35,954 nucleotides of DNA from a virus: positions 1 to 35,954 of the IMG/VR virus record IMGVR_UViG_3300030098_006240. One strand, written 5' to 3'. Of the stretch, positions 5,976 to 30,034 are shown one piece after another. Both the position numbers and the translations under genes were made by a program. Every line of letters starts with the position of its first letter. The first letter of the stretch is position 1. Below the pieces are notes generated by a model. It was not told the DNA's origin. It worked only from the letters and a program-made list of their open reading frames with translations, and made no database searches.

Positions 5976-7400
5976 CTATCCAATCAAGCTATCGGCAATA
6001 GCTGAGCCGCCAGAAGTGGGGAGGTTGTAGTTCATTGACCCGGTGCTGAAAAACCGGTCAAAGTAAAATTGCCACTTGTTAGCTGGCGGCGATGCGCTGT
6101 GGGCATACGTAATAGTGAATGTGTCGTTGGTCCTGAAGTCAGTGTTGCCACGAACAAGAATGCAACCGGGACCACCTGGGTACAGCTGGACGCGCTCTGC
6201 CAAGACCAACTCATCAATTACAATTGTTTTCCCGTTGGGAACCGCTGTGGTGCAGTCGATTGCAAACCTTGCATCCGTAGGGATTTCAGTGTCACTCATG
6301 TCCCATGGTTGCGTAACATGGGTCCAGCTTGTGCCAACGCTTGTCAAATCCAAGGTTTTGGTTCCGCTGGTAGCCGTGCCTGCTTGGTTTTGAATTTCAA
6401 ACTTCAGAGCCCCGCCGCCGACTGTTCCGCTGCCCGCAGCCAAACGCACACGGCAACTAAGAATGTAATTGCCATTAGCCACAACACGCCCGCGAGTTCC
6501 CGTAGGGTCATTGAGGTTTTGGTAGATCCGGTGTTGCCAGCCACTAGAGTCTCCAATGATCGAAAGATTGCCTGAGCTTTCTGTGTTCCAGATGTACGCA
6601 GAAGTCGTGTTTTTCTGCTGCGGCTGCGTTCCTCCAGCATACGTTGCGCTGCCAATTTGCGTGTTTGTCCAGTTGGATGGCGTCCCAGTCGATTCCCACA
6701 ATTGGAAATCGCTGTTGCGCAGTATATTGACACCTGGCACATAGTGACGCTGCGTGGCGGCCCCAAGGTCCTTGGCGCATGTCACTTTGATGTTTCGATT
6801 CACTCCGCTCCCAAGGGGCCAGTCTGCGTCAAACGGGGGGACGAATTCATCGCCGCGTACGTTAAACTCTTCATTCCCTAGCTGCCTGTCGCTAGATTCA
6901 TCAGCTACACATTCAAAATTGAGAACTTCGCCTTTGATTGTTTGATAAAGCGTTGCTGAAGACATGATGTTCTTAGGCAGGTTGCTGTTAACAATCAGGG
7001 TGCCCGTGCCCGTGTTTGAGCCACCGGCTGCCACTGTGCCTGACGTAGAATAGTTAACAGCTTCGACGTAATAGCTGCCAATCATGTCCTGGATCAAGTG
7101 CCAAAGGGCGTCTTGAACATTTGTACTTTCTATAGACAGCCCAGCGTTGACTGTTTCAATCAAGATATTGCGCGCAATGTTTTGCAACTGCCTAAAACTA
7201 GCGTTCAGCGGGGCATCAAACGTCTTGTATTGAGCAGGCAAATTGCCCAACATATACATGTCAGTGTTGGTAAATTCGTCCAGCACATCTTCAATTTCTG
7301 CTCGGACGTTGCTTTGATACGACTCCATAAGTTCATGGACGTAAAACAACTTTCCAAGCCTTGTAAACAATCCGTTCGTGCCAGTGTAGGTTATCGCCAC
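5976..7400 (-). CDS. Virion/tail protein with C-terminal carbohydrate-binding-like jelly-roll domain
   Basis: A GTG start at 7400, with a GGAG ribosome-binding site about 8 bases upstream, opens 474 codons. Residues 1-120 are helical and may be an attachment or oligomerisation part. Residues about 224-400 have the pattern of a carbohydrate-binding or galactose-binding beta-sandwich: V-N-I-L-R-N-S-D-F-Q-L-W, then P-S-N-W, followed by alternating beta strands and a D-E-L-V-L strand. In tail proteins such modules usually bind cell-surface glycans. It follows the cysteine-rich block by a few bases and precedes the giant genes. A host-contacting tail or fibre-associated role is inferred; the domain assignment rests on sequence pattern only. 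Confidence 0.75.
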   Translation of the reverse strand: MAITYTGTNGLFTRLGKLFYVHELMESYQSNVRAEIEDVLDEFTNTDMYMLGNLPAQYKTFDAPLNASFRQLQNIARNILIETVNAGLSIESTNVQDALWHLIQDMIGSYYVEAVNYSTSGTVAAGGSNTGTGTLIVNSNLPKNIMSSATLYQTIKGEVLNFECVADESSDRQLGNEEFNVRGDEFVPPFDADWPLGSGVNRNIKVTCAKDLGAATQRHYVPGVNILRNSDFQLWESTGTPSNWTNTQIGSATYAGGTQPQQKNTTSAYIWNTESSGNLSIIGDSSGWQHRIYQNLNDPTGTRGRVVANGNYILSCRVRLAAGSGTVGGGALKFEIQNQAGTATSGTKTLDLTSVGTSWTHVTQPWDMSDTEIPTDARFAIDCTTAVPNGKTIVIDELVLAERVQLYPGGPGCILVRGNTDFRTNDTFTITYAHSASPPANKWQFYFDRFFSTGSMNYNLPTSGGSAIADSLIG

Positions 7401-7414
7401 AAGAATGCTCCGAA

Positions 7415-7720
7415 TTACCCACCCAGCATTGTCAAAGTCAACCGGCCTGCAACACCCGCAACTGCCTCAAATCGGTGAGTGCGAGGCAGTTCGACGCGGA
7501 AGTCCTGGTTGAAAATCACTGTGCTGTTTTGTGGTACTGTCTGGTGAAACAAAAGGTGATCTGTAAGAGTCGAGCTAGCATTAAGTAACGGCACAGCGTA
7601 CAGATGCACTGTAGTGTCTGTTCCAGAATGATTCACAACCACTATTGTTGCGCCAGCACCGGCAAATTCAATCGGCTTGCGGACTGTTGTCAGTGGTGTC
7701 TGGCTCGCTAATCTCGGCAT
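7415..7720 (-). CDS. Small beta-rich hypothetical virion protein (101 aa)
   Basis: The 101-residue product is mostly short hydrophobic beta-strand segments (T-I-V-V-V-N-H-S-G, V-H-L-Y-A-V-P, S-T-V-I-F-N), with no charged helices. This is typical of small decoration or tail-associated phage proteins. Its ATG at 7720 lies 53 bases inside the 3' end of the preceding 146-aa gene in another frame, with only a weak Shine-Dalgarno. The overlap is long, but no later ATG exists in the frame. I do not recognise a named family. Confidence 0.65.
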   Translation of the reverse strand: MPRLASQTPLTTVRKPIEFAGAGATIVVVNHSGTDTTVHLYAVPLLNASSTLTDHLLFHQTVPQNSTVIFNQDFRVELPRTHRFEAVAGVAGRLTLTMLGG

Positions 7721-8108
7721 CGTCTTGCTCAGATTTCTGCTTGTAAGGGAAAGCCTTGTTCAACATAGCTTGACGCTTCTTGCAACCGCCGCAAGGTTTG
7801 ATGCCCACGGCATTGGTCATCTTCGCAATAGTGTCGCCTAGCCCACGTGATTTATCGGTGGTTTCTTCGTTTGGCTTGCTATTCTCAGGAATACTTTCAA
7901 GCGGCCATTCGTCATTGACACACGACATGAGCGCTTGTGTGTATACATGCACGTCCACAGAACTAAATACACGCTTTCCATCTTTCAAGGTCACAGGCAC
8001 GCGCTTTTCGCAAGCCAAACAATCCCCGGCCTTAGGCGTTCCGTCGTGCAAGCCCAAAGAGCAGTTTTCCTTATCGGACAAGAAGATGCATGTTTCTGGG
8101 TTGCTCAT
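7668..8108 (-). CDS. Cysteine-motif phage protein (146 aa), possible metal binding
   Basis: The N-terminal half has spaced cysteines (residues about 7, 16, 30, 33 and 62). The C-terminal part contains I-K-P-C-G-G-C-K-K-R-Q followed by L-N-K-A-F-P, a C-x2-C-K-K-R motif that I know recurs in small proteins of tail modules in many marine phages. The tail end is acidic. The ATG at 8108 overlaps the TGA of the 755-aa gene (ATGA), so translation is probably coupled to that very cysteine-rich product. The pattern suggests metal binding or disulfide formation. The biochemical function is unknown. Confidence 0.75.
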   Translation of the reverse strand: MSNPETCIFLSDKENCSLGLHDGTPKAGDCLACEKRVPVTLKDGKRVFSSVDVHVYTQALMSCVNDEWPLESIPENSKPNEETTDKSRGLGDTIAKMTNAVGIKPCGGCKKRQAMLNKAFPYKQKSEQDDAEISEPDTTDNSPQAD

Positions 8109-10375
8109 CAGCTGTAAGTCATCCTTCCATAAGCTCGAATGGTACCAAGGTTCCAGCCTTGCTTGTTTAAGTCTACCACACTATTGTTGCAGCGGTTACA
8201 TGCATGTGTAGCAGTCCCTAAGTCGCAGCCAGCAAAACCTTCTGTTCTGTATGAGCGTTGCGACTCTATGGGGGTGGAAGTTCCGCAAGCGCTACGATTT
8301 GCAAAACTAAGCTGAAGTATATCAATAGCTGTAGGCAGCTCTAGAGCAGCAAATTCTGTGCGTCCAGTTGCTTCATAAAGAGCCATAATTTCACTTACCA
8401 AGCCGCTTTCTTCAGGGTGAAATTGACGCGGTGGTTTTATCCCGCAATTTTCACGTATGCGACCTGCCAAAATCCTGTCGCCGTCAATGCCCTCAATGTT
8501 GGCAATTGCAGCGTCCCAATCAAACCATTGATACACACTGCCAGTGCCTTGGCACGGATGCTTCAATCCGGAGCACGCGCTACCAAAAGAAATAGGCAGA
8601 TACAAATCAGTGTTATCTGGATTAAAAGTCACTTGCATCCGCACGACGCCTGTGCAATTAGGAAGAGTAGCACCGCTTGTTTCAACATAACCGACAAAAG
8701 TGCCAGGGATTCCTATAGACCCCGTAGACCCAATCGAATAAGAAAGTCCCCATCCGTTGGGAATGCCGCCATGGCAACAAGATGGCTGGGAACAATTGAA
8801 ACGCAAACTGTCATCACTTGTACACCAATGCCCCAACTTAATTCTTGGGCACTGCAATAATCCTTTTTCACCTACATCAAACTTGTTGCCAGAACCTTGT
8901 GTGCATTCAACCGAAAAGCTCAAAACCATTTGCAAGCCAAGATGCCGCTGGCCAAAAGCAGTATACCCTTTAAGACAATCGTAATTTGAGTGCGGAATAT
9001 TGCCAAAGCCGCATTCTATGTAATCAGTTATGAACGCAGGGAAAGTTGTCGGGCAGCACAACTGGTCAATAATACCGCAATTGTCTACGCACTCTGTGGG
9101 CGGCCCGCTAGCAGGAGTAACGGTGGGAAATTCTGGCGTAGAACCACACATATCTTGCTTTGAACAAATCAAAGCGTTGCCTTGGGTGCTGTTTCCGCAA
9201 TCAATTGTTAGGCCATCAAGCGCGCTTGGATCCAAAGGAACTCGCAAGCTTTGGCCACCAAACGCTTCCGCAAACCCATCTTCAAGCGTGCCAGTGCAAC
9301 TTGATTCCGTTGGCCCTAATTCAAACGCTGACTTAATATTTATTGATACGCTCAAGCTATGGCTTTGGTTTCCAAACGGGCAGCAAGGCCCGGCCAAGTC
9401 GCAATCCCCAGTTTGGTCGCACTCAATATTTTCATCTTTGCAAAAACACCTATCGTCCCCTGGGGGTGGTGGGCAGCATCTCTGGCCAGAAGGGCAATTT
9501 TCTGCGCAATTTCCATGACAAGTTTGTGGCCCGGGGTCATCTCCGCACCCGTCAAGGCAATCCCCGCAGGTTGCTCTTATTGGATCATTATTGCAAAAGG
9601 GTCCGCCAAACCCGCCGCAGTAATAATCGATAGTTAAAAGTTGCCCATCCCACTCGCAGTAATCAATAATTTCTACGTCACAGGAATCGCAACAAACAGG
9701 GCAACTAGCATTTCCTTCGCCGCAATCTCTTCTTTCGCATGGAATGTCATACGGATCAGGTAACCCTGGCCATGAATCCCCATCGCGGCAAAATTGACGA
9801 ATGTCGCCAACAAACGAATCATCTGGGCAACTGCCAATACTATCATCCCCTAAGCCTGCCCTTACAAGAGTCCAACATTTGCCTCGCCATGTGTAAATAG
9901 GACGAATGGCACGGCAAGGTGGAGGCTGCGAAGGATTATCCGACCGGCATTCAGGAACATCTATTAAATCACGACCTGTTGTTGCAATAGGCACGCATTG
10001 TTTGCCGTTGCACCCTTTGTTGCAACATGGAAAAGAAACTTCATTGCCTTGCTCGTCGATATACGTGCTTCCTGACGTGCAACGATATTCAGGCTCAAAT
10101 ATAGGCCCTGTTGAGTACCAAGCGCCACATCTACATTCCGCCTTTCCCTCATCCGTTTCCAAATCGTCGCAACAATCAGCGCATCCACCCTCTGTTTCGC
10201 TGTTTAATTGATGGTAAATCAAAACGCAATCTTGGGGAAGCTGCGTTTTGCAATCAGGCGGGTCTGCCCATTCTGGACATAGGGGTCGCAATATGTACCA
10301 ACAACAATTTTCACAAGCCCTGCACAAGTCAGCGCAAGGTTGATTGTGCAAAGTTTGCCGCGTGTCAATTAGCAT
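8108..10375 (-). CDS. 755-aa extremely cysteine-rich virion-module protein
   Basis: By my count the product has about 70 cysteines in 755 residues (about 9%), many as C-C pairs or C-x2-C and C-x3-C. They are densest in residues 1-340, with Gly, Asp and Pro between them. This resembles extracellular knottin, EGF or granulin-like disulfide modules more than zinc fingers, because histidines are few. The C-terminal half has beta-sandwich-like stretches, including N-P-D-N-T-D-L-Y-L-P. There is no N-terminal signal peptide. Its start shares one base with the stop of the 241-aa gene (TAATG) and its stop overlaps the next start (ATGA). Position among virion genes suggests an exposed tail component. 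I cannot assign a family. Confidence 0.8.
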   Translation of the reverse strand: MLIDTRQTLHNQPCADLCRACENCCWYILRPLCPEWADPPDCKTQLPQDCVLIYHQLNSETEGGCADCCDDLETDEGKAECRCGAWYSTGPIFEPEYRCTSGSTYIDEQGNEVSFPCCNKGCNGKQCVPIATTGRDLIDVPECRSDNPSQPPPCRAIRPIYTWRGKCWTLVRAGLGDDSIGSCPDDSFVGDIRQFCRDGDSWPGLPDPYDIPCERRDCGEGNASCPVCCDSCDVEIIDYCEWDGQLLTIDYYCGGFGGPFCNNDPIRATCGDCLDGCGDDPGPQTCHGNCAENCPSGQRCCPPPPGDDRCFCKDENIECDQTGDCDLAGPCCPFGNQSHSLSVSINIKSAFELGPTESSCTGTLEDGFAEAFGGQSLRVPLDPSALDGLTIDCGNSTQGNALICSKQDMCGSTPEFPTVTPASGPPTECVDNCGIIDQLCCPTTFPAFITDYIECGFGNIPHSNYDCLKGYTAFGQRHLGLQMVLSFSVECTQGSGNKFDVGEKGLLQCPRIKLGHWCTSDDSLRFNCSQPSCCHGGIPNGWGLSYSIGSTGSIGIPGTFVGYVETSGATLPNCTGVVRMQVTFNPDNTDLYLPISFGSACSGLKHPCQGTGSVYQWFDWDAAIANIEGIDGDRILAGRIRENCGIKPPRQFHPEESGLVSEIMALYEATGRTEFAALELPTAIDILQLSFANRSACGTSTPIESQRSYRTEGFAGCDLGTATHACNRCNNSVVDLNKQGWNLGTIRAYGRMTYS

Positions 10376-11100
10376 TAATAATTCCGTGGTGTTCTTGTTT
10401 GACTGTATGCTTCATTGCCAGGAAGGGGCGTAATGTCAAAAGGAACACTGGTAAGGGGCTCGGTGCCACCGCCATCGCCTTCATCTTCTCCGCAATACAA
10501 GCAGGGCTGCACCACAGCGCTAAACCAATAAAAAGTGTTTGGGCCAAGGAGCCTGTCTGTTTGCATACATTGGCTGCAAACTAGCTCCTCAGATTCTCCT
10601 TCGTCACCCTTCGATGCTTCAAACTCAGCACATACAGCTGCGTTCATTGTCACTATGTGGCCTTCGCCACCACTGCATATAGGTTGCGCTTGACATTCCA
10701 GGCCCTGAAAACATTCTGGAATAGTGGCAGGCGGAATCACAATTGGTTTGCCAGATTCGCAAACAAGGTTTTCTTCGTACGTGTTAGAAGCCACAAACTT
10801 GTAAGAGCCGGGGGAATCGTCCTTTGCATCTTGTGGCACCTGTATGGTTGCTGGAATTCCTCGCGGCCCAGCAACCTCAACAGCAACGTAGTTGCAACCT
10901 TGGCTGTCAAAAGAATTGCCAAATTCAATGACTGCGGGGAAGGCCCTGTACTTCATGAGGCCGCCGCCGCCATTGTGTATTGCGTACTCAATCAGGGGCA
11001 TGTATTGCTGAATCGCCTGAAGCTCAGAACCCAGCTGCAAAACGTATTCGCGCCACGTGCTGCTAAGCCAAGGTTTTCCATTAGGAGGTGTGCCAGGCAT
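10375..11100 (-). CDS. Hypothetical virion-module protein (241 aa) with C-terminal cysteines
   Basis: The N-terminal 90 residues contain an amphipathic helix and a beta-type segment (Y-R-A-F-P-A-V-I-E-F). The C-terminal half has about nine cysteines, including C-S-Q-C and C-L-Y-C, and a Gly/Glu-rich loop, so it shares the cysteine-rich character of the 755-aa product that follows it by a one-base TAATG overlap. It lies 2 bases downstream of the 263-aa gene. I do not recognise a family. The coupling suggests the 241-, 755- and 146-aa products form one assembly, which is inference. Confidence 0.75.
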   Translation of the reverse strand: MPGTPPNGKPWLSSTWREYVLQLGSELQAIQQYMPLIEYAIHNGGGGLMKYRAFPAVIEFGNSFDSQGCNYVAVEVAGPRGIPATIQVPQDAKDDSPGSYKFVASNTYEENLVCESGKPIVIPPATIPECFQGLECQAQPICSGGEGHIVTMNAAVCAEFEASKGDEGESEELVCSQCMQTDRLLGPNTFYWFSAVVQPCLYCGEDEGDGGGTEPLTSVPFDITPLPGNEAYSQTRTPRNY

Positions 11101-12315: not shown

Positions 12316-12840
12316 TTATGTCTCCTGCACAGGACCGCCAGACCCACCAAATTGATCGGTCACGCGCCCTTGAATTGACAATCCAACAAAAGGCTGGTCC
12401 ATGTCAAAGTTAATTGTGACACGTTCAACAGTCATCATAAACTTGATGACCTTTTCATCGCCTTGCGTAGCCGTTGAGTTGCGCCCATAGCCGATTGTGA
12501 ATTTAACGCCAATGCGATTTTTGTCAGGGTCTTCGAGATTAGCCAGGCCGATTGCTGACGCGGTTGACACACAAAACCCTTGCATAACCACTTCGCCACG
12601 AAGCTGCCCAAGGCTACGCATTTGTGTGTCATCAATAATGTTATTAGAACCAAACGTAGCCGTGTCCCATTCGCCAGTGGCATCTATGAAATCTGTTCCA
12701 AAAGACATCTGAGCCTGTGTAACCTTGATTTCATAGTCCGGGCTGCCACTGCTGGTGGCACCGCGATAGATAAGTGCTACCGCAGTGCTTTCGCCAGTAA
12801 ACGGCTTTAGGGCAAGATCCGGTTGGGAGCGCCTTGGCAT
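12316..12840 (-). CDS. Hypothetical structural protein (174 aa), beta-rich
   Basis: The product begins with a basic M-P-R-R-S-Q-P and continues with alternating beta-strand segments, a W-D-T-A-T-F-G motif, a G-E-V-V-M-Q-G strand and a C-terminal V-G-L-S-I-Q-G-R-V strand. Size and all-beta character are compatible with a tail-tube or decoration fold, but I see no diagnostic motif. It lies 3 bases after the 71-aa gene and one base before the 42-aa coiled-coil gene. A virion role is inferred from context. Confidence 0.75.
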   Translation of the reverse strand: MPRRSQPDLALKPFTGESTAVALIYRGATSSGSPDYEIKVTQAQMSFGTDFIDATGEWDTATFGSNNIIDDTQMRSLGQLRGEVVMQGFCVSTASAIGLANLEDPDKNRIGVKFTIGYGRNSTATQGDEKVIKFMMTVERVTINFDMDQPFVGLSIQGRVTDQFGGSGGPVQET

Positions 12841-13070: not shown

Positions 13071-14102
13071 TCAATAAAGTGTGCTGTTGTAAGTTACGTT
13101 GTTGTTTGGGTCGCGGTACTTTGGAAAGCTTGTCCGTTTATCGGAGCTATCGCCGTTGTATCCAAAGTACTCGACCCGGGAAACCGTTCGATCCTGAGCT
13201 ACTGCGGATTGTAGTTGCTGTGCGTAAAGCCTTGCAAATGTTCCGTTATTGGGGTGGTCTGCGTAGCCTTCTGCAATAGCCAGGGCGGCATTGATCACAA
13301 TGCCTTCATACCGGTCAGGGATGACTTGCGAGCCAGTCCCGTCAGTGTGCGTAATGTCATTTAAGTACCCGTACCGAAGTATATAATCAGTGTCCGGTGG
13401 CGGGTAGAACATGAACTTGCTCAGTTTTTCGTCATAAGAAACGTATTGCGGCCTATTTGGGGAGATCGTCTTGGCCGAGTACATGTTCATCATGGTGTCC
13501 CAAGGGATCACCTCAAGGTGGGGTTTGCTAATGTTCAGGTCATGAACCATGGGCCCATCAAACCCACTGAAATGCGTTGCCGCATCGTGAAACACCTGAT
13601 AGAAAGTAAACGACACCCCTGTGGTTTTAGCCGTAACATCAAGGTCGGCGTTTGCTGCGGCCAGCGTCATGTTGGTTGCTGTCAAAGCAGCCGGAATGTG
13701 CCAGCCATCTGCGATACCAAGACCAGAAACTTCAACAACGGTGGTTTTTTGATCTGTGCTGTCAAAAGCCCATGTAGGAACTGCTCCGCCACCAGTAAAA
13801 TTAAAGGTGATGGTTCCGTTGACAACCACAGGGCCACTCGAAGCGTCCAGTTTGCTGTTTGCGTGTGACGCCGTGTAGGGATCATTCAGGTACGCGGCGC
13901 TGTTGGAGCGGAGCCACGACCAGACATGAGACACTCTTTCCCCGGGCATCGGTGGGGGCATCAAGAAGTCTTTGAGCGCCCTGTCCGCAATGTTGGTGAT
14001 CAGGCTTGCCGTGCCGGTCGGGGCACTAGCGGCTGTTGATGAATACCCGTAACCCAGAAAGTGCGATACTTCGCTGATAATTACGCTTGCTGCTACTGCC
14101 AT
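13071..14102 (-). CDS. Putative head-tail adaptor (connector) protein, 343 aa
   Basis: I chose the ATG at 14102, preceded by AAAGG at suitable spacing, over a TTG six codons upstream; the upstream gene ends at 14104. The N-terminal helix region reads I-S-E-V-S-H-F-L-G. A central segment of about residues 90-170 is beta-rich and may be an insertion. The C-terminal part has the order typical of phage adaptor/connector proteins: Y-D-E-K-L-S-K-F-M-F-Y-P-P-P-D, then Y-I-L-R-Y-G-Y, then V-I-P-D-R-Y-E-G-I-V followed by an alanine-rich helix. Such proteins join the portal to the tail. The assignment is from this pattern and from context. Confidence 0.65.
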   Translation of the reverse strand: MAVAASVIISEVSHFLGYGYSSTAASAPTGTASLITNIADRALKDFLMPPPMPGERVSHVWSWLRSNSAAYLNDPYTASHANSKLDASSGPVVVNGTITFNFTGGGAVPTWAFDSTDQKTTVVEVSGLGIADGWHIPAALTATNMTLAAANADLDVTAKTTGVSFTFYQVFHDAATHFSGFDGPMVHDLNISKPHLEVIPWDTMMNMYSAKTISPNRPQYVSYDEKLSKFMFYPPPDTDYILRYGYLNDITHTDGTGSQVIPDRYEGIVINAALAIAEGYADHPNNGTFARLYAQQLQSAVAQDRTVSRVEYFGYNGDSSDKRTSFPKYRDPNNNVTYNSTLY

Positions 14103-14103
14103 G

Positions 14104-14787
14104 TCAATACACCTTTGCAATCAACGCGTTTCCTGGCACTGACAGGGAGCCCATGCTGCATGTGACAACCAGCTTCTGGAACATGGAAAGGCCAGGGATG
14201 TAACAAAGCGGCGTAGTATCAATGCCAGAACCAACAGCAGTTCCGCGCATATCGAGGGCAGCAAGTGATGACAAATCCGCCGGATCTATACCATCCAAAG
14301 TGGTGGTCGCCATCCAAAGCCCATTTTTTTCATTTGTGCCATCGCCACCGCGAACGAAAGATTCGTACGTAGTTTCCGTAACTGGGTGCGTAAAAATCAT
14401 GTTCGTCCTTGTCCCTCCCACATCTGCTTGATTTTCGTCCAGCAAAGTAGCGTTGTTCGAGGTCACGCGTGCAATTTTTACGGTTCCAAGAAGGGTTAGC
14501 ATTGCAGGGTTTTGTGAAGACGATTGCATTGGTGTTCCTTGCGTAACACACCCGTAAACGTCAAACTCTGCGTCGTTGCTGCCAAGCCCTGCTTGATAAG
14601 AACCAATCAAGGGCATCAAAAACAAGCCCTCTACATCTTCAGTGTTGATGACAGATATTCTTTTTGCAAGCGAATCAGTGTCAAGTCGCTCTTGTGATAT
14701 GTAAACAACCGAATCGCCATAGGGCTCAGCGTTTCCGCTTGCCATATCAACGTCATCACGAAGCCAACTGAAGCCTGTATTGAACAT
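14104..14787 (-). CDS. Virion protein, paralogue B of a tandem pair (227 aa)
   Basis: The ATG at 14787 is preceded by AAGG. The product starts M-F-N-T-G-F-S-W-L and ends S-M-F-Q-K-L, then a beta strand, then N-A-L-I-A-K-V-Y. The upstream 219-aa product has M-Y-N-T-G-F-H-W-L at the start and V-F-Q-K-L with N-V-L-V-A-R-L-Y at the end, so the two are diverged tandem duplicates of similar length. The body is beta-strand rich, as in decoration or tail-tube proteins. No enzymatic motif is seen and the function is unknown. Confidence 0.8.
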   Translation of the reverse strand: MFNTGFSWLRDDVDMASGNAEPYGDSVVYISQERLDTDSLAKRISVINTEDVEGLFLMPLIGSYQAGLGSNDAEFDVYGCVTQGTPMQSSSQNPAMLTLLGTVKIARVTSNNATLLDENQADVGGTRTNMIFTHPVTETTYESFVRGGDGTNEKNGLWMATTTLDGIDPADLSSLAALDMRGTAVGSGIDTTPLCYIPGLSMFQKLVVTCSMGSLSVPGNALIAKVY

Positions 14788-15913: not shown

Positions 15914-16690
15914 TTAGGACATCCTTACAAGTTCTGCATCCCAACATCGACCATTTAGCCGAGAAGGTCTATCCCAAATACATTCTACAATAATTAATGC
16001 TGTACCCCATTGGCTAGTATCTTTTCTCTTCATGTAACCGGGCCGTAAAGGCCCACAAGTCCCGACATTGGAGTACCAAAATGGAAGTGGAATCTTGGCT
16101 GTTCTTCGGCATTGCGTTGGCTCTACTGGCCTGTGCGTATGGCCTCGAACGGTCAAACTAAATGGCACCCACCCACAAGCGCCAAGCATTTGCAAACCCT
16201 CAAGTTCGTCAGAATTTTGAGCAGAATCGAATCCGTGGTAGAAATGGCATTGCCCAACTCTGTACACCCCTTTCTTGGTCTTTTCATATGGCACCCAGTG
16301 CCATTTCCTGAACTCCGACCCAAATTCGGGATGCAGATTCCAATCAACAAGACCCCTTAGGGATTTGGGTATGCGCCTGGGGTCTTGGGTTTTGATATTG
16401 TCATCGTGGTTACCTGTATTGATCCACCTATGGCAATTAGGTGGCAACACGTCTCGAATAGATTTCAGTAAATTGCACGCGTGTTCATATTCGTCTGATA
16501 ACGAATGGTCGAATTCGTTGGCGTGAACGCTTGCTGCCCCGGCTTCAAACACGTCGCCCAAGTGCCCAAAGTGCGTCAGCCCAGAAGTGTTAGCAAGCGT
16601 GTCTAGGAGCCACTGATGTGTTTCTGGTGGCGTAAACGGCGAGTGTGTGCAAGAGATGGCCGCAATTTTTGCTTTATTGCGTTCCCTCAT
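15914..16690 (-). CDS. Calcineurin-like metallophosphoesterase (258 aa)
   Basis: Most signature motifs of the dinuclear metallophosphoesterase superfamily are present in order: G-D at residues 45-46 (G-H-L-G-D), G-N-H-D at 93-96, an H-G at 152-153 and G-H-T-H at 183-186. The first motif, normally D-x-H, reads C14-T-H16 within I-S-C-T-H, so the usual metal-ligand Asp is a Cys. Related enzymes hydrolyse phosphodiesters or phosphomonoesters; the substrate is unknown. The gene lies between a possible exported lipoprotein and small virion genes, and overlaps the former by 17 bases. Confidence 0.85.
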   Translation of the reverse strand: MRERNKAKIAAISCTHSPFTPPETHQWLLDTLANTSGLTHFGHLGDVFEAGAASVHANEFDHSLSDEYEHACNLLKSIRDVLPPNCHRWINTGNHDDNIKTQDPRRIPKSLRGLVDWNLHPEFGSEFRKWHWVPYEKTKKGVYRVGQCHFYHGFDSAQNSDELEGLQMLGACGWVPFSLTVRGHTHRPVEPTQCRRTAKIPLPFWYSNVGTCGPLRPGYMKRKDTSQWGTALIIVECIWDRPSRLNGRCWDAELVRMS

Positions 16691-17171
16691 CTGTTTTCCA
16701 ATTACCTAGAAGAATCGTCAAATCCGACCCTTCAACAGTACCGTTGTTATTGAGGTCCCAGGGGCTGTCCGTTGAGCCCCATTCTGCAAGTAGCTTTCCT
16801 ACATCATCGGGGCCAAAGCTATTACGCATCAAATAAAAGGCAAAATGCATCGGCGTACTGACGGGTTGGTGCATCGCTGAATGTGCTGTTCGGCACCAAC
16901 TGACCTGAAGCAATTTGCCCTCATAAAGAAAATCGTCGAAACGCAACATCGGTTCACCCGGGCGGCACGAAATGGCGGGTCCCGCAAGCACCTGATTATC
17001 GGGCACATCAAATGCGTATTCCATGCAGGGAGTCGTTGTGGTTTCAAAATGCAACCATGCGGTGCCTTTGTAGACGGTTCGAGGCCCATCTTCTTCGATT
17101 GTGTACTGAATCGTGTATTCGTCAGTTAAACAACTGCCCAACAACCGCAAAGCCATCGCAAATGAAAGCAT
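16674..17171 (-). CDS. Possible lipoprotein with C-terminal dockerin/EF-hand-like motif (165 aa)
   Basis: The ATG at 17171 has an AGGG site and follows the preceding stop by one base. The start M-L-S-F-A-M-A-L-R-L-L-G-S-C resembles a short signal with a lipobox, although the n-region lacks a positive charge. The middle is beta-rich with further cysteines. Residues about 122-158 hold a helix ending in L-L-A-E-W-G, then a 12-residue calcium-binding-type loop D139-L-N-N-N-G-T-V-E-G-S-D150, then L-T-I-L-L-G-N-W. This matches the dockerin-like C-terminal signature common in exported Phycisphaerae (planctomycete) proteins. In a phage it may mimic host surface or secretion machinery, or be a lysis or receptor-blocking factor. 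Confidence 0.7.
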   Translation of the reverse strand: MLSFAMALRLLGSCLTDEYTIQYTIEEDGPRTVYKGTAWLHFETTTTPCMEYAFDVPDNQVLAGPAISCRPGEPMLRFDDFLYEGKLLQVSWCRTAHSAMHQPVSTPMHFAFYLMRNSFGPDDVGKLLAEWGSTDSPWDLNNNGTVEGSDLTILLGNWKTDEGTQ

Positions 17172-26856: not shown

Positions 26857-27074
26857 GCATCACCTCCTTCCGTCTTCGGAACGAGTCGAGACGGCACATC
26901 GAAGACGAGCGCGGGATAGTCCCCGCCCCAGTCCTGATCAATGCCAATGGAAATGGCGCCCTCCGGCATCATGTCGTGCTTCACAGCGAACCGGTGCAAC
27001 ATCGAGGCGAACGCGTGGAACTCCTCCTCGGACAGTTCGCGCCGAACCTCAACAACGTCAGCAGATCTACTCAT
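26853..27074 (-). CDS. Hypothetical small early protein (73 aa)
   Basis: The start at 27074 has an AAAGGG site and lies 8 bases inside the end of the 124-aa gene. The product has an N-terminal charged helix (V-R-R-E-L-S-E-E-E-F-H-A-F-A-S-M-L) and a beta-type C-terminal end (I-S-I-G-I-D-Q-D-W-G). No family recognised. Confidence 0.65.
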   Translation of the reverse strand: MSRSADVVEVRRELSEEEFHAFASMLHRFAVKHDMMPEGAISIGIDQDWGGDYPALVFDVPSRLVPKTEGGDA

Positions 27075-27441
27075 TGTGTCCCCTTTCAAGTTTCAGGACG
27101 TAGATAAGAAAGTCGGCCAGATTGGCCTGAAGTCCCGGATGCAACCCTGCTTCCGGGAAACGTAGAACGATCGTATCGAGCGAATCGGCATTGCGCAACA
27201 TAACATCAACCACGCCTGCGAGGCACTGCAAGCCGAATCCCTCGCGCCTTATACCCGCAGGCGTCATGTCACCAACACCGGAAATGCGCTCGATCCATTT
27301 TCCTGTGTCCGGGTGGAACTCATCCACCTCCGCAACGTGGGCGAGCCGTTCACGGACGCCCCATACACGCCGGGAGGGATGCTCGATGTCTTGGGTATGA
27401 TTTGCGGCGGGAATAATCACGCCCAGGCGCGCCCGTTTCAT
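27067..27441 (-). CDS. Hypothetical early protein (124 aa)
   Basis: I chose the ATG at 27441, which overlaps the stop of the 88-aa gene as ATGA. The product begins basic (M-K-R-A-R-L-G-V-I-I), has a V-W-G-V-R-E-R-L-A-H-V helix and a C-terminal helical part (V-V-D-V-M-L-R and L-A-D-F-L-I-Y-V-L). No catalytic motif is visible. Confidence 0.65.
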   Translation of the reverse strand: MKRARLGVIIPAANHTQDIEHPSRRVWGVRERLAHVAEVDEFHPDTGKWIERISGVGDMTPAGIRREGFGLQCLAGVVDVMLRNADSLDTIVLRFPEAGLHPGLQANLADFLIYVLKLERGHNE

Positions 27442-27704
27442 TGGCCGCCCCCCTTCATGAACCACCGGAGGCTAGGGTCCTCCAGCATGGCGGCGATGGC
27501 TTGTAGGTGTGTCAGGGTGTCCAGCTGCCCCCGGCGCACTTGCTCCGCCACCGCCCCGGCTCCCGGCCTGCCGTAGGTCATGCGCTCGATCTCATCGAGA
27601 GCATAGAACACCGCGCGCAGGTTCTGCGCTTTCTTGGTCCACTCGCCCGCGCCCCTATATAGGACGTGGGCGGGTTCTAGCAACTCCTCGGCGTCTAGTG
27701 TCAT
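27438..27704 (-). CDS. Hypothetical helical early protein (88 aa)
   Basis: The product is mostly alpha-helical and charged (D-A-E-E-L-L-E-P-A-H-V-L-Y, A-V-F-Y-A-L-D-E-I-E-R-M-T). It ends R-W-F-M-K-G-G-G-Q, overlapping the next gene as ATGA. It lies 12 bases after the 230-aa gene. Function unknown. Confidence 0.65.
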   Translation of the reverse strand: MTLDAEELLEPAHVLYRGAGEWTKKAQNLRAVFYALDEIERMTYGRPGAGAVAEQVRRGQLDTLTHLQAIAAMLEDPSLRWFMKGGGQ

Positions 27705-27716
27705 GGGTTGCCCTCC

Positions 27717-28409
27717 TCAGTGCTTCGGATATACAACGTCAATCCCAGCACGCGCGCAGGCGGTACAGTTGCCGCACTTCGCGCGCTCGGTGTCTGCGCC
27801 TACTTTCTTGGCCGCTACTGCCGGGCACACGATGCAACGGCGCCCGGTCGCCTTGCGCCGCTTGCGCGCGGCTGCTCTCGCCTCGTCCAGACCATCCACG
27901 ACGAACGAGGACGGCCCGCCAGCATCCCGGAACCGCTGCGCGCTGGTTGCGCTCTCACGGACCACGACACCCAACCCGCGCAGGGCTCGTCGGTATCGGG
28001 TCGCCTTCTGCCTCGTCTCGGTGGGGAAGTGTATCGGGATCGACCGATCGATCAGCCACCCACACAAGTCGCGGAGCGCTCGCACGTCTTCGCGGGTCGG
28101 ATGCGCTGGCACGCTGCCACATACGCACAAGCGGAACCAGATCGGCACGAACCCCGCGCGCGCGCCTGCGCGCAGTTCATCCAGAGCCGCTCGACAAGTA
28201 GCCGCGAAGCCTTGCGCGTGGTGTCGGTCGAGCTTCTCCGCAAGGGCACGATATCGGCCCTCGATCCGCTCCGCGTAGCAGCCGCGCCCGTAGTGGGGGC
28301 AGCGCTTCGAACAATGCGCCGAAGCACTCCGGGCGAAGGAGAGCCCGACCGAGCCGGGCGCCCCCTTCCCGAAGACCGTCAGCGTGGTGGGTTGTAGTCG
28401 TAGCCTCAT
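27717..28409 (-). CDS. Cysteine-motif early protein (230 aa), GP88/Gp37-68-like pattern
   Basis: Near the N-terminus is H-C-S-K-R-C-P-H-Y-G-R-G-C-Y-A-E, a C-x3-C-x5-C-Y-A pattern that recalls phage Gp37/Gp68 and GP88-type families, in which cysteines bind metal or an iron-sulfur cluster. A C-V-C-G pair follows in the middle, and the C-terminal 45 residues have C-I-V-C-P, C-G-N-C and C-A-R. The rest is Arg/Ala-rich helix typical of this GC-rich block. It overlaps the upstream gene stop (ATGA). The family assignment is tentative. Confidence 0.6.
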   Translation of the reverse strand: MRLRLQPTTLTVFGKGAPGSVGLSFARSASAHCSKRCPHYGRGCYAERIEGRYRALAEKLDRHHAQGFAATCRAALDELRAGARAGFVPIWFRLCVCGSVPAHPTREDVRALRDLCGWLIDRSIPIHFPTETRQKATRYRRALRGLGVVVRESATSAQRFRDAGGPSSFVVDGLDEARAAARKRRKATGRRCIVCPAVAAKKVGADTERAKCGNCTACARAGIDVVYPKH

Positions 28410-28606
28410 CAGTCCACCTCTCGCGGTGCGGTCACGTCGTTGACCATCAACTCGACCACCGGGGCAAGGTCGCGAACGGTCGCGCCCCCTAACAGCTTTT
28501 CGTATTCACTGGGGGTGATCAGGCAAATCGAGCCCCCGGAAAGCTCCGCCCAGGTCTCGCCGTCTGATGTGACGATGATCGGCACGAGTTCGGGTGCGGC
28601 GTTCAT
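28409..28606 (-). CDS. Hypothetical small early protein (65 aa)
   Basis: The ATG at 28606 overlaps the stop of the preceding gene (ATGA). The product is short and beta-rich (V-P-I-I-V-T-S-D-G-E-T-W-A-E-L, S-I-C-L-I-T) and ends in an acidic helix. No family recognised. Confidence 0.6.
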   Translation of the reverse strand: MNAAPELVPIIVTSDGETWAELSGGSICLITPSEYEKLLGGATVRDLAPVVELMVNDVTAPREVD

Positions 28607-28854
28607 CGGTCCACCTCCAGATCGAGGCTTGCGCAAATCTCGATCGCTTCATCCTCGGACAGCGCGCCGAGTTCTACGAGGAGGGAGCCCGCGCGCAGGT
28701 AGAGGTCTCGACGTTCGGGGAGCCGGGCAGAGTCGCGCGCGCATCGGGTGCAATGAGCGAACGCCGCGCGGGCGCCGCGTTCCATTTGAAGGCGGATGGA
28801 GAGCTTCAGCGCTCGACGCTCGCGCGCTTCTCGGATCATGTCGGTGGCTTTCAT
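28603..28854 (-). CDS. Hypothetical helical early protein (83 aa)
   Basis: From the ATG at 28854, preceded by GGAGGT, the product is a charged helix (M-I-R-E-A-R-E-R-R-A-L-K-L) with a single C-T-R-C pair and an acidic C-terminus (S-E-D-E-A-I-E-I). The start overlaps the previous stop (ATGA). Confidence 0.65.
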   Translation of the reverse strand: MKATDMIREARERRALKLSIRLQMERGARAAFAHCTRCARDSARLPERRDLYLRAGSLLVELGALSEDEAIEICASLDLEVDR

Positions 28855-29078
28855 CGTTGTACCTCCGCGGGCTGTCCGTTCTCGAATGCGCGTCGGGCGC
28901 TTGCGGCTGGGGTGATCATCCTGCACGCGCCGTCGCGGCGTTCGTATGCGTAGACAATCAAGGCCCGCCCGGTAAGCGGTGCGGTGCTGCGAATGCGCGC
29001 GATGGTCTCGCCGTGGGCGGTGATGCGCCGCGGTGCGGTCTTGCGTTGCTGCGCGTACGCTTGAGCATGGTGGGTCAT
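28851..29078 (-). CDS. Hypothetical small basic early protein (75 aa)
   Basis: The ATG at 29078 has an AAAGGA site. The product is basic (A-Q-Q-R-K-T-A-P-R-R-I), with a beta hairpin (T-I-A-R-I-R-S, A-L-I-V-Y-A-Y). It is the second gene of the GC-rich leftward operon, following a long inverted repeat. Function unknown. Confidence 0.65.
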   Translation of the reverse strand: MTHHAQAYAQQRKTAPRRITAHGETIARIRSTAPLTGRALIVYAYERRDGACRMITPAASARRAFENGQPAEVQR

Positions 29079-29105
29079 TTCTTCAATCCTTTCAGGGGTT
29101 GGGGG

Positions 29106-29160
29106 AACCGGGGCGGGTGCGCTTCCTGCGCTGGCGCATCCTTGCGCCCCCGCCCCGGTT
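29106..29160. repeat. Long inverted repeat between two early genes
   Basis: The 12-mer aaccggggcggg at 29106-29117 pairs exactly with cccgccccggtt at 29149-29160. The 31 bases between them can form a smaller tgcg/cgca hairpin. No T-run follows on the - strand, so it is not a canonical terminator. It may stabilise or process the early transcript. Confidence 0.7.
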
Positions 29161-29165
29161 CGTAA

Positions 29166-29681
29166 TCAGTGCTTCGGAGTCGTTCCGGCTTCGGCACGGT
29201 CGCGCGCGTACGGTTGGAAGAGTGCGCCGGGATGCGCGGGCGGATGCTGTTCGAGCAGCGCTAGCAGGTGGCGGTAGCAGTCTTCCGCCTCGGATCCGCG
29301 GCCGAACTTGTCCGAGTGGTATCCGGTCATGCCTGCCAGAGTGCGAAGCACATCCAAAGAGTAGACGCCGCGCATTTCCTCGACCCGCTCGCCCGAAAAT
29401 CCTCGCGTGATCGTAGACTTCGGGCCATCCCCGCTCTTGTACGTGCGCACCAGTCCGGCGACCTCCAGAAGCTCGGTCGGCACGTCGGCTTTGTGCGCGA
29501 AGTCCTCGACGGGATAGATGGTATGCCCATCCGCACCGATCGCGCGCGCGATGCGCTCGACCTGTTCGCACGTGAGCGCGTCCGGGTTGGAGATCTCCCG
29601 CCCGTTCCGCGTGCTTGCGCTCGCGATGGATTCGACCATGTCGGCGAGCCGCGTGGCCAGCCCTCGCAATTCATCAGTCAT
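29166..29681 (-). CDS. Hypothetical first gene of the leftward GC-rich operon (171 aa)
   Basis: I chose the ATG at 29681, preceded by AAAGG. The frame continues upstream to 29993, but that part lies in the divergent regulatory region. The product begins M-T-D-E-L-R-G-L-A-T-R-L-A-D-M-V and has V-E-R-I-A-R-A-I-G, L-L-E-V-A-G-L-V-R-T-Y-K and C-Y-R-H-L-L-A-L-L-E helices. The middle could be a DNA-binding helix-turn-helix but I cannot define it. As the first early gene after the divergent region it is a good candidate for a regulator. Confidence 0.65.
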   Translation of the reverse strand: MTDELRGLATRLADMVESIASASTRNGREISNPDALTCEQVERIARAIGADGHTIYPVEDFAHKADVPTELLEVAGLVRTYKSGDGPKSTITRGFSGERVEEMRGVYSLDVLRTLAGMTGYHSDKFGRGSEAEDCYRHLLALLEQHPPAHPGALFQPYARDRAEAGTTPKH

Positions 29682-29727
29682 CGTTGTACCTTTCATGATG
29701 CGCGCCCCGTGGCGCTGGTTGTGTGAC

Positions 29728-29741
29728 GGATTGTACCGTTT
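29728..29741. promoter_or_regulatory. Related operator-like palindrome upstream of the leftward operon
   Basis: Acggattgtaccgt (acggtacaatccgt on the other strand) is a 14-bp inverted repeat related to the 16-bp CGGTACGATTGTACCG palindrome. It lies 47 bases upstream of the first leftward early gene. TACAAT on the - strand could be a -10 box overlapping the site, as expected for a repressor operator. Confidence 0.4.
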
Positions 29742-29974
29742 CGACGAGTAGAGAGTCGGATCCTGACCGGGTGAAACTTGAAAAGAATGCGCGAAACATA
29801 TACACGGGAGAGCCCGCCGGGTATGTGCGCAGACAAGGACGCAAGCAACAAGTAGCCCAGGCGCAGCCCATGCGCGCCGTCTTGGTGGGTGGGGTACTCC
29901 CCTCTTCAAAGACCTGCTCATCCGTGCCGCGAATCGTTCGACCGAATCGACGAGCGCTCCGCCAGCCGGGCAGC

Positions 29975-30034
29975 GCCGAGCGCCGAGCAACACAAGAGGC
30001 CCGCCGGGCGCCGAGAGCCGAGAGCCTCGCCGAG
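29975..30034. repeat. Five GCCGAG hexamers, iteron-like
   Basis: GCCGAG occurs at 29975-29980, 29982-29987, 30010-30015, 30017-30022 and 30029-30034, with a GCCGAA variant near 30038. Pairs are spaced 7 bases start to start. This is iteron-like in appearance, though GC-rich low complexity is an alternative. Confidence 0.4.

Follow-up and report, generated by a model that had tools for sequence, protein, structure and literature searches.

A cysteine-saturated protein and a small cysteine gene form a recurrent pair in uncultured phages

Cysteine-rich proteins in phage particles and host envelopes

Synthesis in the reducing cytoplasm usually keeps the cysteine content of phage structural proteins low. 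In the available excerpts of the report on Agrobacterium phage Milano, a disulfide network locks the tail and ties the receptor-binding proteins to the baseplate, and the structural proteins contain 2.1% cysteine on average (PMC10811340). The locus analysed here, on a single linear viral record of 35,954 bases (the window), resembles Milano, as those excerpts present it, in a putative phage structural protein, P0001, that uses cysteine. Unlike Milano, where the 2.1% is spread over many proteins in the part of the report considered (PMC10811340), the window places 9.3% in one protein, about four times richer. No sequence relation between the Milano proteins and P0001 was found, and a search of open PMC text found no paper on such a cysteine-rich phage tail protein.

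Excerpts of a second report describe cysteine-rich YTV proteins in the cell wall of planctomycetes, their genes being confined to Planctomycetales (PMC8567305). P0001 is like these proteins, so far as the excerpts describe them, in its cysteine richness, and they belong to the envelope of the suspected host phylum (PMC8567305). P0001 matches no Pfam family, and the search thus shows no relation between it and the YTV proteins.

For the small genes that follow the cysteine-rich gene, P0003 among them, the closest described families are two PHROGs of unannotated function. P0003 matches phrog_32048 over residues 84–125 (E 4.3e-12, profile positions 8–49 of 119); matches in GenBank phages span the C-terminal motif alone, and the Nonlabens gene lies near a terminase gene. 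The second, phrog_13558, is an alternative small gene found behind a cysteine-rich gene, for example in L097, and differs from P0003 in its CPxGHW end, its other cysteine pattern and its absence from this slot in the window.

The cysteine-rich gene and its neighbours

Among 13 window proteins counted, P0001 alone exceeds 5% cysteine (70/755, about every eleventh residue). The other 12 range from 0 to 4.8%, with both neighbours of P0001 next highest, at 10/241 (4.1%) and 7/146 (4.8%); the median of 770 ORFs of at least 150 aa from other phage loci is 0.9%. Residues 1–332 hold 46 of the 70 cysteines, and an N-terminal cluster is formed by C14, C18, C21, C24 and C25. P0001 is a real, conserved gene, flanked by a module of conserved genes (Table 1).

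Table 1 Features of the window around the cysteine-rich gene and of genes bearing on phage type and host.
Feature	Coordinates	Strand	Remarks
P0005, 474 aa, conserved anchor gene for finding relatives	5976..7400	-	no match to a family above cut-off
P0004, 101 aa, no Cys	7415..7720	-	conserved in slot
P0003, small cysteine protein, 146 aa, 7 Cys	7668..8108	-	matches phrog_32048
P0001, cysteine-rich protein, 755 aa, 70 Cys	8108..10375	-	ATG at 10375; orthologues in L002, L007, L008
P0002, 241 aa, 10 Cys	10375..11100	-	orthologue identity 25–41%
P0008, 263 aa, conserved module gene, similar to P0013	11103..11894	-	
P0013, 95 aa, short relative of P0008	11902..12189	-	
P0009, 174 aa, conserved module gene	12316..12840	-	
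P0010, SU10-type head-tail adaptor	13071..14120	-	Pfam PF24175, 31.5 bits, cut-off 27
P0017, dockerin-like repeat at end, planctomycete type	16674..17171	-	host clue only
P0021, terminase-like protein	31540..33330	+	Terminase_6N, E 0.041, below cut-off
P0022, portal-like protein	33279..35087	+	SU10_portal, 28.2 bits, just under cut-off 30

An earlier note on this DNA had described an ORF of this length and cysteine content, lacking a signal peptide and translationally coupled to genes of 241 and 146 aa. The ORF is exactly where the note placed it and has this length and cysteine content, although it lies on the minus strand; read for ORFs, the plus strand over the same interval is full of stops. 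By Kyte–Doolittle hydropathy, used here as the signal check instead of a dedicated signal-peptide predictor, no hydrophobic signal or membrane stretch was found in P0001 (maximum 19-residue mean 1.05, N-terminus 0.46). The P0001 start codon shares one base with the stop of P0002 (TTAATG), and the P0001 stop codon shares one with the start of P0003 (TGATG), an arrangement that would fit translational coupling at both ends. The note had also singled out CC and C-x2-C arrangements, and here it fared less well: P0001 has 8 CC and 7 CxxC, and shuffles preserving regional cysteine density give an expectation of 6.9 for each. CxC occurs 2 times, against 6.8 expected in shuffles.

The adaptor scores above its Pfam cut-off and the portal below (Table 1), and genes for a helicase, RecT, a PD-(D/E)XK nuclease and a toprim-like protein are also present; judged by its genes, the phage appears SU10-like and is probably short-tailed. 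No Rfam match was found in the window. GC-type dockerins are typical of planctomycetes. The dockerin-like repeat of P0017 scores 12.3 bits with Pfam, below cut-off, and P0017 has no NCBIfam match; its counterpart in L008 passes the NCBIfam GC-type dockerin model (29.4, cut-off 29), the one in L007 nearly does (27.4), and comparable motifs are present in additional relatives. A planctomycete is the probable host. No relative was found among bacterial genome contigs with alignments of P0005 and P0014 as queries, in a short-pattern search that is a weak method.

Divergence and cysteine retention in orthologues

In three related loci the gene order from the adaptor to P0005 is identical to that of the window, and the P0001 slot encodes proteins of 710 aa with 64 cysteines (L002), 582 aa with 48 (L007) and 571 aa with 55 (L008). 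A final scan with all four P0001-type proteins found no further orthologues. Identity within the four loci is 31–37% for P0001, compared with 55–71% for P0005 and 41–92% for the adaptor, and of eight neighbouring genes P0001 and P0002 diverge most.

Because an ordinary aligner favours C/C matches, a cysteine-blind matrix was used alongside it. Against L002, the closest orthologue (about 30% identity), 48 of the 70 P0001 cysteines are matched C/C in the ordinary alignment and 33 in the cysteine-blind one, where about 5.7 are expected by chance; against L007 and L008 the cysteine-blind alignment retains only 12–13, with about 4–5 expected. Five pairs from other clusters of cysteine-rich proteins, at about 50% identity, have C/C in 62–86% of cysteine columns with the cysteine-blind aligner, and two distant pairs, at 27–28% identity, in 24–37%. 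On these alignments the cysteine framework is conserved, firmly where the pairs are close and partially where they are distant. Loss of the cysteines in homologues had been named in the earlier note as a result that would count against its reading, and the range from the cysteine-blind to the ordinary count in L002 speaks for retention. Conservation of cysteines within a clade, as in a Milano-type system, is likewise found with L002 and the five closer pairs and is weaker against L007 and L008.

The position beside an SU10-type adaptor gene and the fast divergence appear compatible with a host-contacting part of the virion; together with the cysteine retention, they fit an exposed virion protein with a disulfide-fixed fold and a changing surface. 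P0001 could instead be an internal or structural part of the particle, at the head–tail joint or in the tail core, with cysteines serving stability and not host contact. Its location near the adaptor gene and near large cysteine-free proteins agrees with such a role, as does the contribution of disulfides to particle stability in Milano, in the excerpts of that report (PMC10811340). We consider this rather unlikely, given that P0001 ranks with the module's most divergent genes, that its length varies from 571 to 755 aa, unlike core proteins, and that the 82 cysteine-rich proteins described below fall into as many as 43 clusters.

Family and structure searches

As the sole query, P0001 gave no match in PHROGs, Pfam, GenBank phages or IMG/VR. 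No family match was obtained in Pfam, PHROG, NCBIfam or PDB sequences, tail fibre and spike families (PHROG, Pfam, PDB sequences) included, and relatives of the P0001 and P0005 types are absent from 50,697 GenBank phage records. Pfam includes a YTV model; at E 0.5 no Pfam family, YTV among them, matches P0001. A Pfam scan of 11 aligned members (A8) gave only two weak unrelated matches, in one member each. The knottin, EGF and granulin families, named for comparison in the earlier note, thus have no Pfam match in P0001 or these 11 members, nor does a WAP-type small disulfide domain or any metal-site family. A novel disulfide domain in P0001 is possible. An AlphaFold2 model of P0001, built with 11 aligned members, reached a pLDDT of 34 and was not used.

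Several other cysteine-rich partners of the small gene share a recurrent domain of about 130–139 aa, sometimes repeated within one protein, of which 14 copies were aligned. The domain is predicted to be all-beta (pLDDT 80). HMM iteration did not find it in P0001, and its fold therefore carries no direct information on that protein. Foldseek against the PDB returned no match under E 0.001 and 418 weak ones up to E 10; the best match in BFVD was the viral protein A0A1B1IPS6 (probability 1.00, TM 0.50, E 0.007), and the best by VIA-align was HtaA (Z 5.0, r.m.s.d. 4.5, 112 residues aligned), in a range that is common for the tool.

A recurrent pair with a small cysteine gene

With P0005 as anchor, 68 loci were found. 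For the new loci, numbering 65, two (L060 and L082) were dropped because the upstream DNA was cut off, leaving 63 P0005-type loci with enough upstream sequence. Just before P0005 in 46 of the 63 stands a cysteine-rich gene (at least 3.8% cysteine in this table) followed by a small cysteine gene, a figure that is not a count of independent cases, since overlapping and near-copy contigs are included (for example, L064 and L119; L077, L078, L111 and L120; L100–L102), and that comes from a partly circular table, the HMMs of the small gene having been built partly from the same loci. The small gene has two types. P0003-like genes carry GIKPCxxC, in the closer loci within the pattern RGxGD … GIKPCxxCKKR … LN, and in P0003 itself the C-terminal motif contains GLGDTIAK and GIKPCGGCKKRQ; genes of the other type end in CPxGHW.

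In 8 more of these loci the pair is absent beside P0005, and a CPxGHW-type gene lies about 10 kb downstream; these 8 distant copies were absent from the sequences used for HMM building. The gene directly before the distant copy has 6.5–10.6% cysteine in 7 of the 8. The exception, L066 (13187–15121), has 3.3%, compared with about 9–10% in similar loci, perhaps through a frame error in the contig. The remaining 9 of the 63 lack both arrangements. Of these, 7 stop before reaching 10 kb beyond the anchor, and one of the other two, L112, encodes a 606-aa ORF with 60 cysteines at a greater distance downstream.

An independent test, outside the P0005 clade, started from the small gene. The P0003 motif is encoded by 573 stretches, of which 80 were kept and 50 used, the difference being P0005-clade loci, near copies, and loci in which the motif or an upstream ORF could not be read. 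In 26 of these 50 non-redundant loci the GIKPCxxC ORF is immediately preceded by a gene of 5% cysteine or more; the same level is reached by 1 of 36 downstream genes and by 9 of 671 other ORFs (Fisher p 2e-26). In the other 24 the preceding gene stays under 5%, so a cysteine-rich partner does not accompany every small gene. The pairing is therefore strong but not universal, and it is more informative than the coupling to neighbouring genes, the only form in which the earlier note had mentioned it. Around the motif gene in phages of Nonlabens and Microcystis, the annotation lists other hypothetical, terminase or glycosyltransferase genes. In phage and plasmid collections the small CxxC motif was matched only in part.

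Often, a P0003-like gene encodes a total of two cysteines, which form one CxxC (for example, L132 and L141). Even one zinc site needs more than two, and a redox or tethering role for these genes would therefore be reasonable. In L129 (9965–11491) and L136 (9920–10742), behind a cysteine-rich gene, the GIKPCxxC domain is fused to sequence that by eye is glycosyltransferase-like. The cysteine-rich partner in L141 (2900–4837) has a long Ser-Pro repeat linker between its cysteine-rich parts.

P0001 could also be a non-virion protein, an effector or superinfection factor that is secreted or injected and acts on competing phages or the envelope of the host. Fast divergence, the absence of family matches, the presence of the pair in other phages and its occasional placement 10 kb from P0005 would all suit such a protein. 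Against it stand the lack of a signal or membrane stretch, the one-base overlaps with the neighbouring genes and the fixed slot beside P0005 in most anchored loci, and we regard it as unlikely.

Composition of the cysteine-rich proteins

From these loci, 82 distinct cysteine-rich proteins form 43 blastp clusters. They were selected by cysteine content (about 4–5% or more), so their richness is by choice; the N-terminal CCC is not, and it occurs within the first 40 residues of 47 of the 82, shuffles averaging 1.1 with a maximum of 5. By hhalign, the P0001 cluster has no detectable homology to the other cysteine-rich clusters (best probability 0.95%), and the clusters are therefore treated as occupants of the same slot and not as one family. 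On present sequence comparisons, they may either have diverged beyond recognition or be unrelated fillers of that slot.

In 20 representatives CC is enriched (65, with 43.4 expected from shuffles), and CxxC (41 versus 42.8) and CxC (44 versus 42.3) are not. The number of cysteines is even in 35 of the 82 and odd in 47. An odd count leaves at least one cysteine with no partner in its own chain, and if disulfides form, inter-chain bonds or some free thiols are needed. These counts bear on the possibility that P0001 holds zinc, copper or iron–sulfur clusters, in a structural role or to capture metal from the host. High cysteine content, odd counts in most of the 82 proteins, the N-terminal C-x2-C-x2-CC run of P0001 and the repeated C-x2-C in L061 and L062 would be natural in a metal binder. 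The excess of CxC or CxxC characteristic of metallothioneins and zinc ribbons is found in neither P0001 nor the 20 representatives, CC being enriched instead; P0001 has 11 histidines in 755 aa, and no metal-site family of Pfam was matched. Since CxxC is not enriched, metal binding is not favoured, zinc-ribbon-like binding by P0001 appears disfavoured likewise, and we rate metal binding as improbable.

A proposed role for the pair

The likeliest reading of P0001 is a fast-evolving, disulfide-stabilised, host-contacting protein on the outside of the virion tail; we infer the virion location, the disulfides and the host contact, and give this reading about an even chance of being right. The interpretation in the earlier note, a disulfide-stabilised host-contacting tail structure or a binder of many metal ions, is borne out in part: the retained cysteines favour the first, and the metal alternative loses ground with the unenriched CxxC. 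In the proposed mechanism, the fold of P0001 would be fixed by many disulfides formed after the particle leaves the reducing cytoplasm, or alternatively in an oxidising compartment of the envelope. No thioredoxin-like gene was found in the window, so oxidation would depend on the host or on air. The rigid cysteine framework would bear variable surface segments for host contact, and the clustered cysteines at the N-terminus, which form CCC in many relatives, probably link chains of an oligomer or anchor the protein to the virion, perhaps via the cysteine-containing neighbour P0002. P0003, the usual partner, probably aids folding, oxidation or assembly. Thiol–disulfide exchange with the host envelope may be a further possibility, in view of the cysteine-rich cell-wall proteins described, in the excerpts cited above, for the suspected host phylum.

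The novelty lies in the repeated association of a divergent, cysteine-saturated protein with a small cysteine gene; the searched family libraries do not contain the pair, save for the two PHROGs of unannotated function that cover the small gene. An unannotated pair whose larger protein has about 4–12% cysteine, in phages that otherwise have little in common, suggests a route to virion stability or host contact that has yet to be described; its occurrence in many different uncultured phages suggests a strongly cross-linked part of the virus particle that would likewise be undescribed. A cysteine-rich gene followed by GIKPCxxC is an easy genomic marker for such phages, some of which may infect planctomycetes. 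More tentatively, and with the balance of probability against it, a hypervariable cysteine-saturated surface protein with a CCC anchor and a dedicated CxxC protein that oxidises or assembles it could be a transferable cassette of many uncultured phages. If so, the cassette would be a phage-encoded route to disulfide-armoured, fast-diversifying host-contact proteins despite the reducing cytoplasm, with a logic comparable to that of other scaffolds in which cysteines hold the fold while loops vary.

Other features of the window

The product of P0014 (15914–16690) is metallophosphoesterase-like, with a Pfam match below cut-off, and shows 59–89% identity across 48 viral contigs, a strong conservation for otherwise different phages: with many of these contigs the window has no further translated gene in common, save P0017 in some. 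The adjacent genes P0011 and P0012 (14104–15456), of about 220 aa each, match the same region in relatives, and L004 likewise has two copies. Between the oppositely transcribed halves of the window, GC content is about 64% at 27000–30000, compared with 47–57% elsewhere, and this segment is possibly a recent acquisition.
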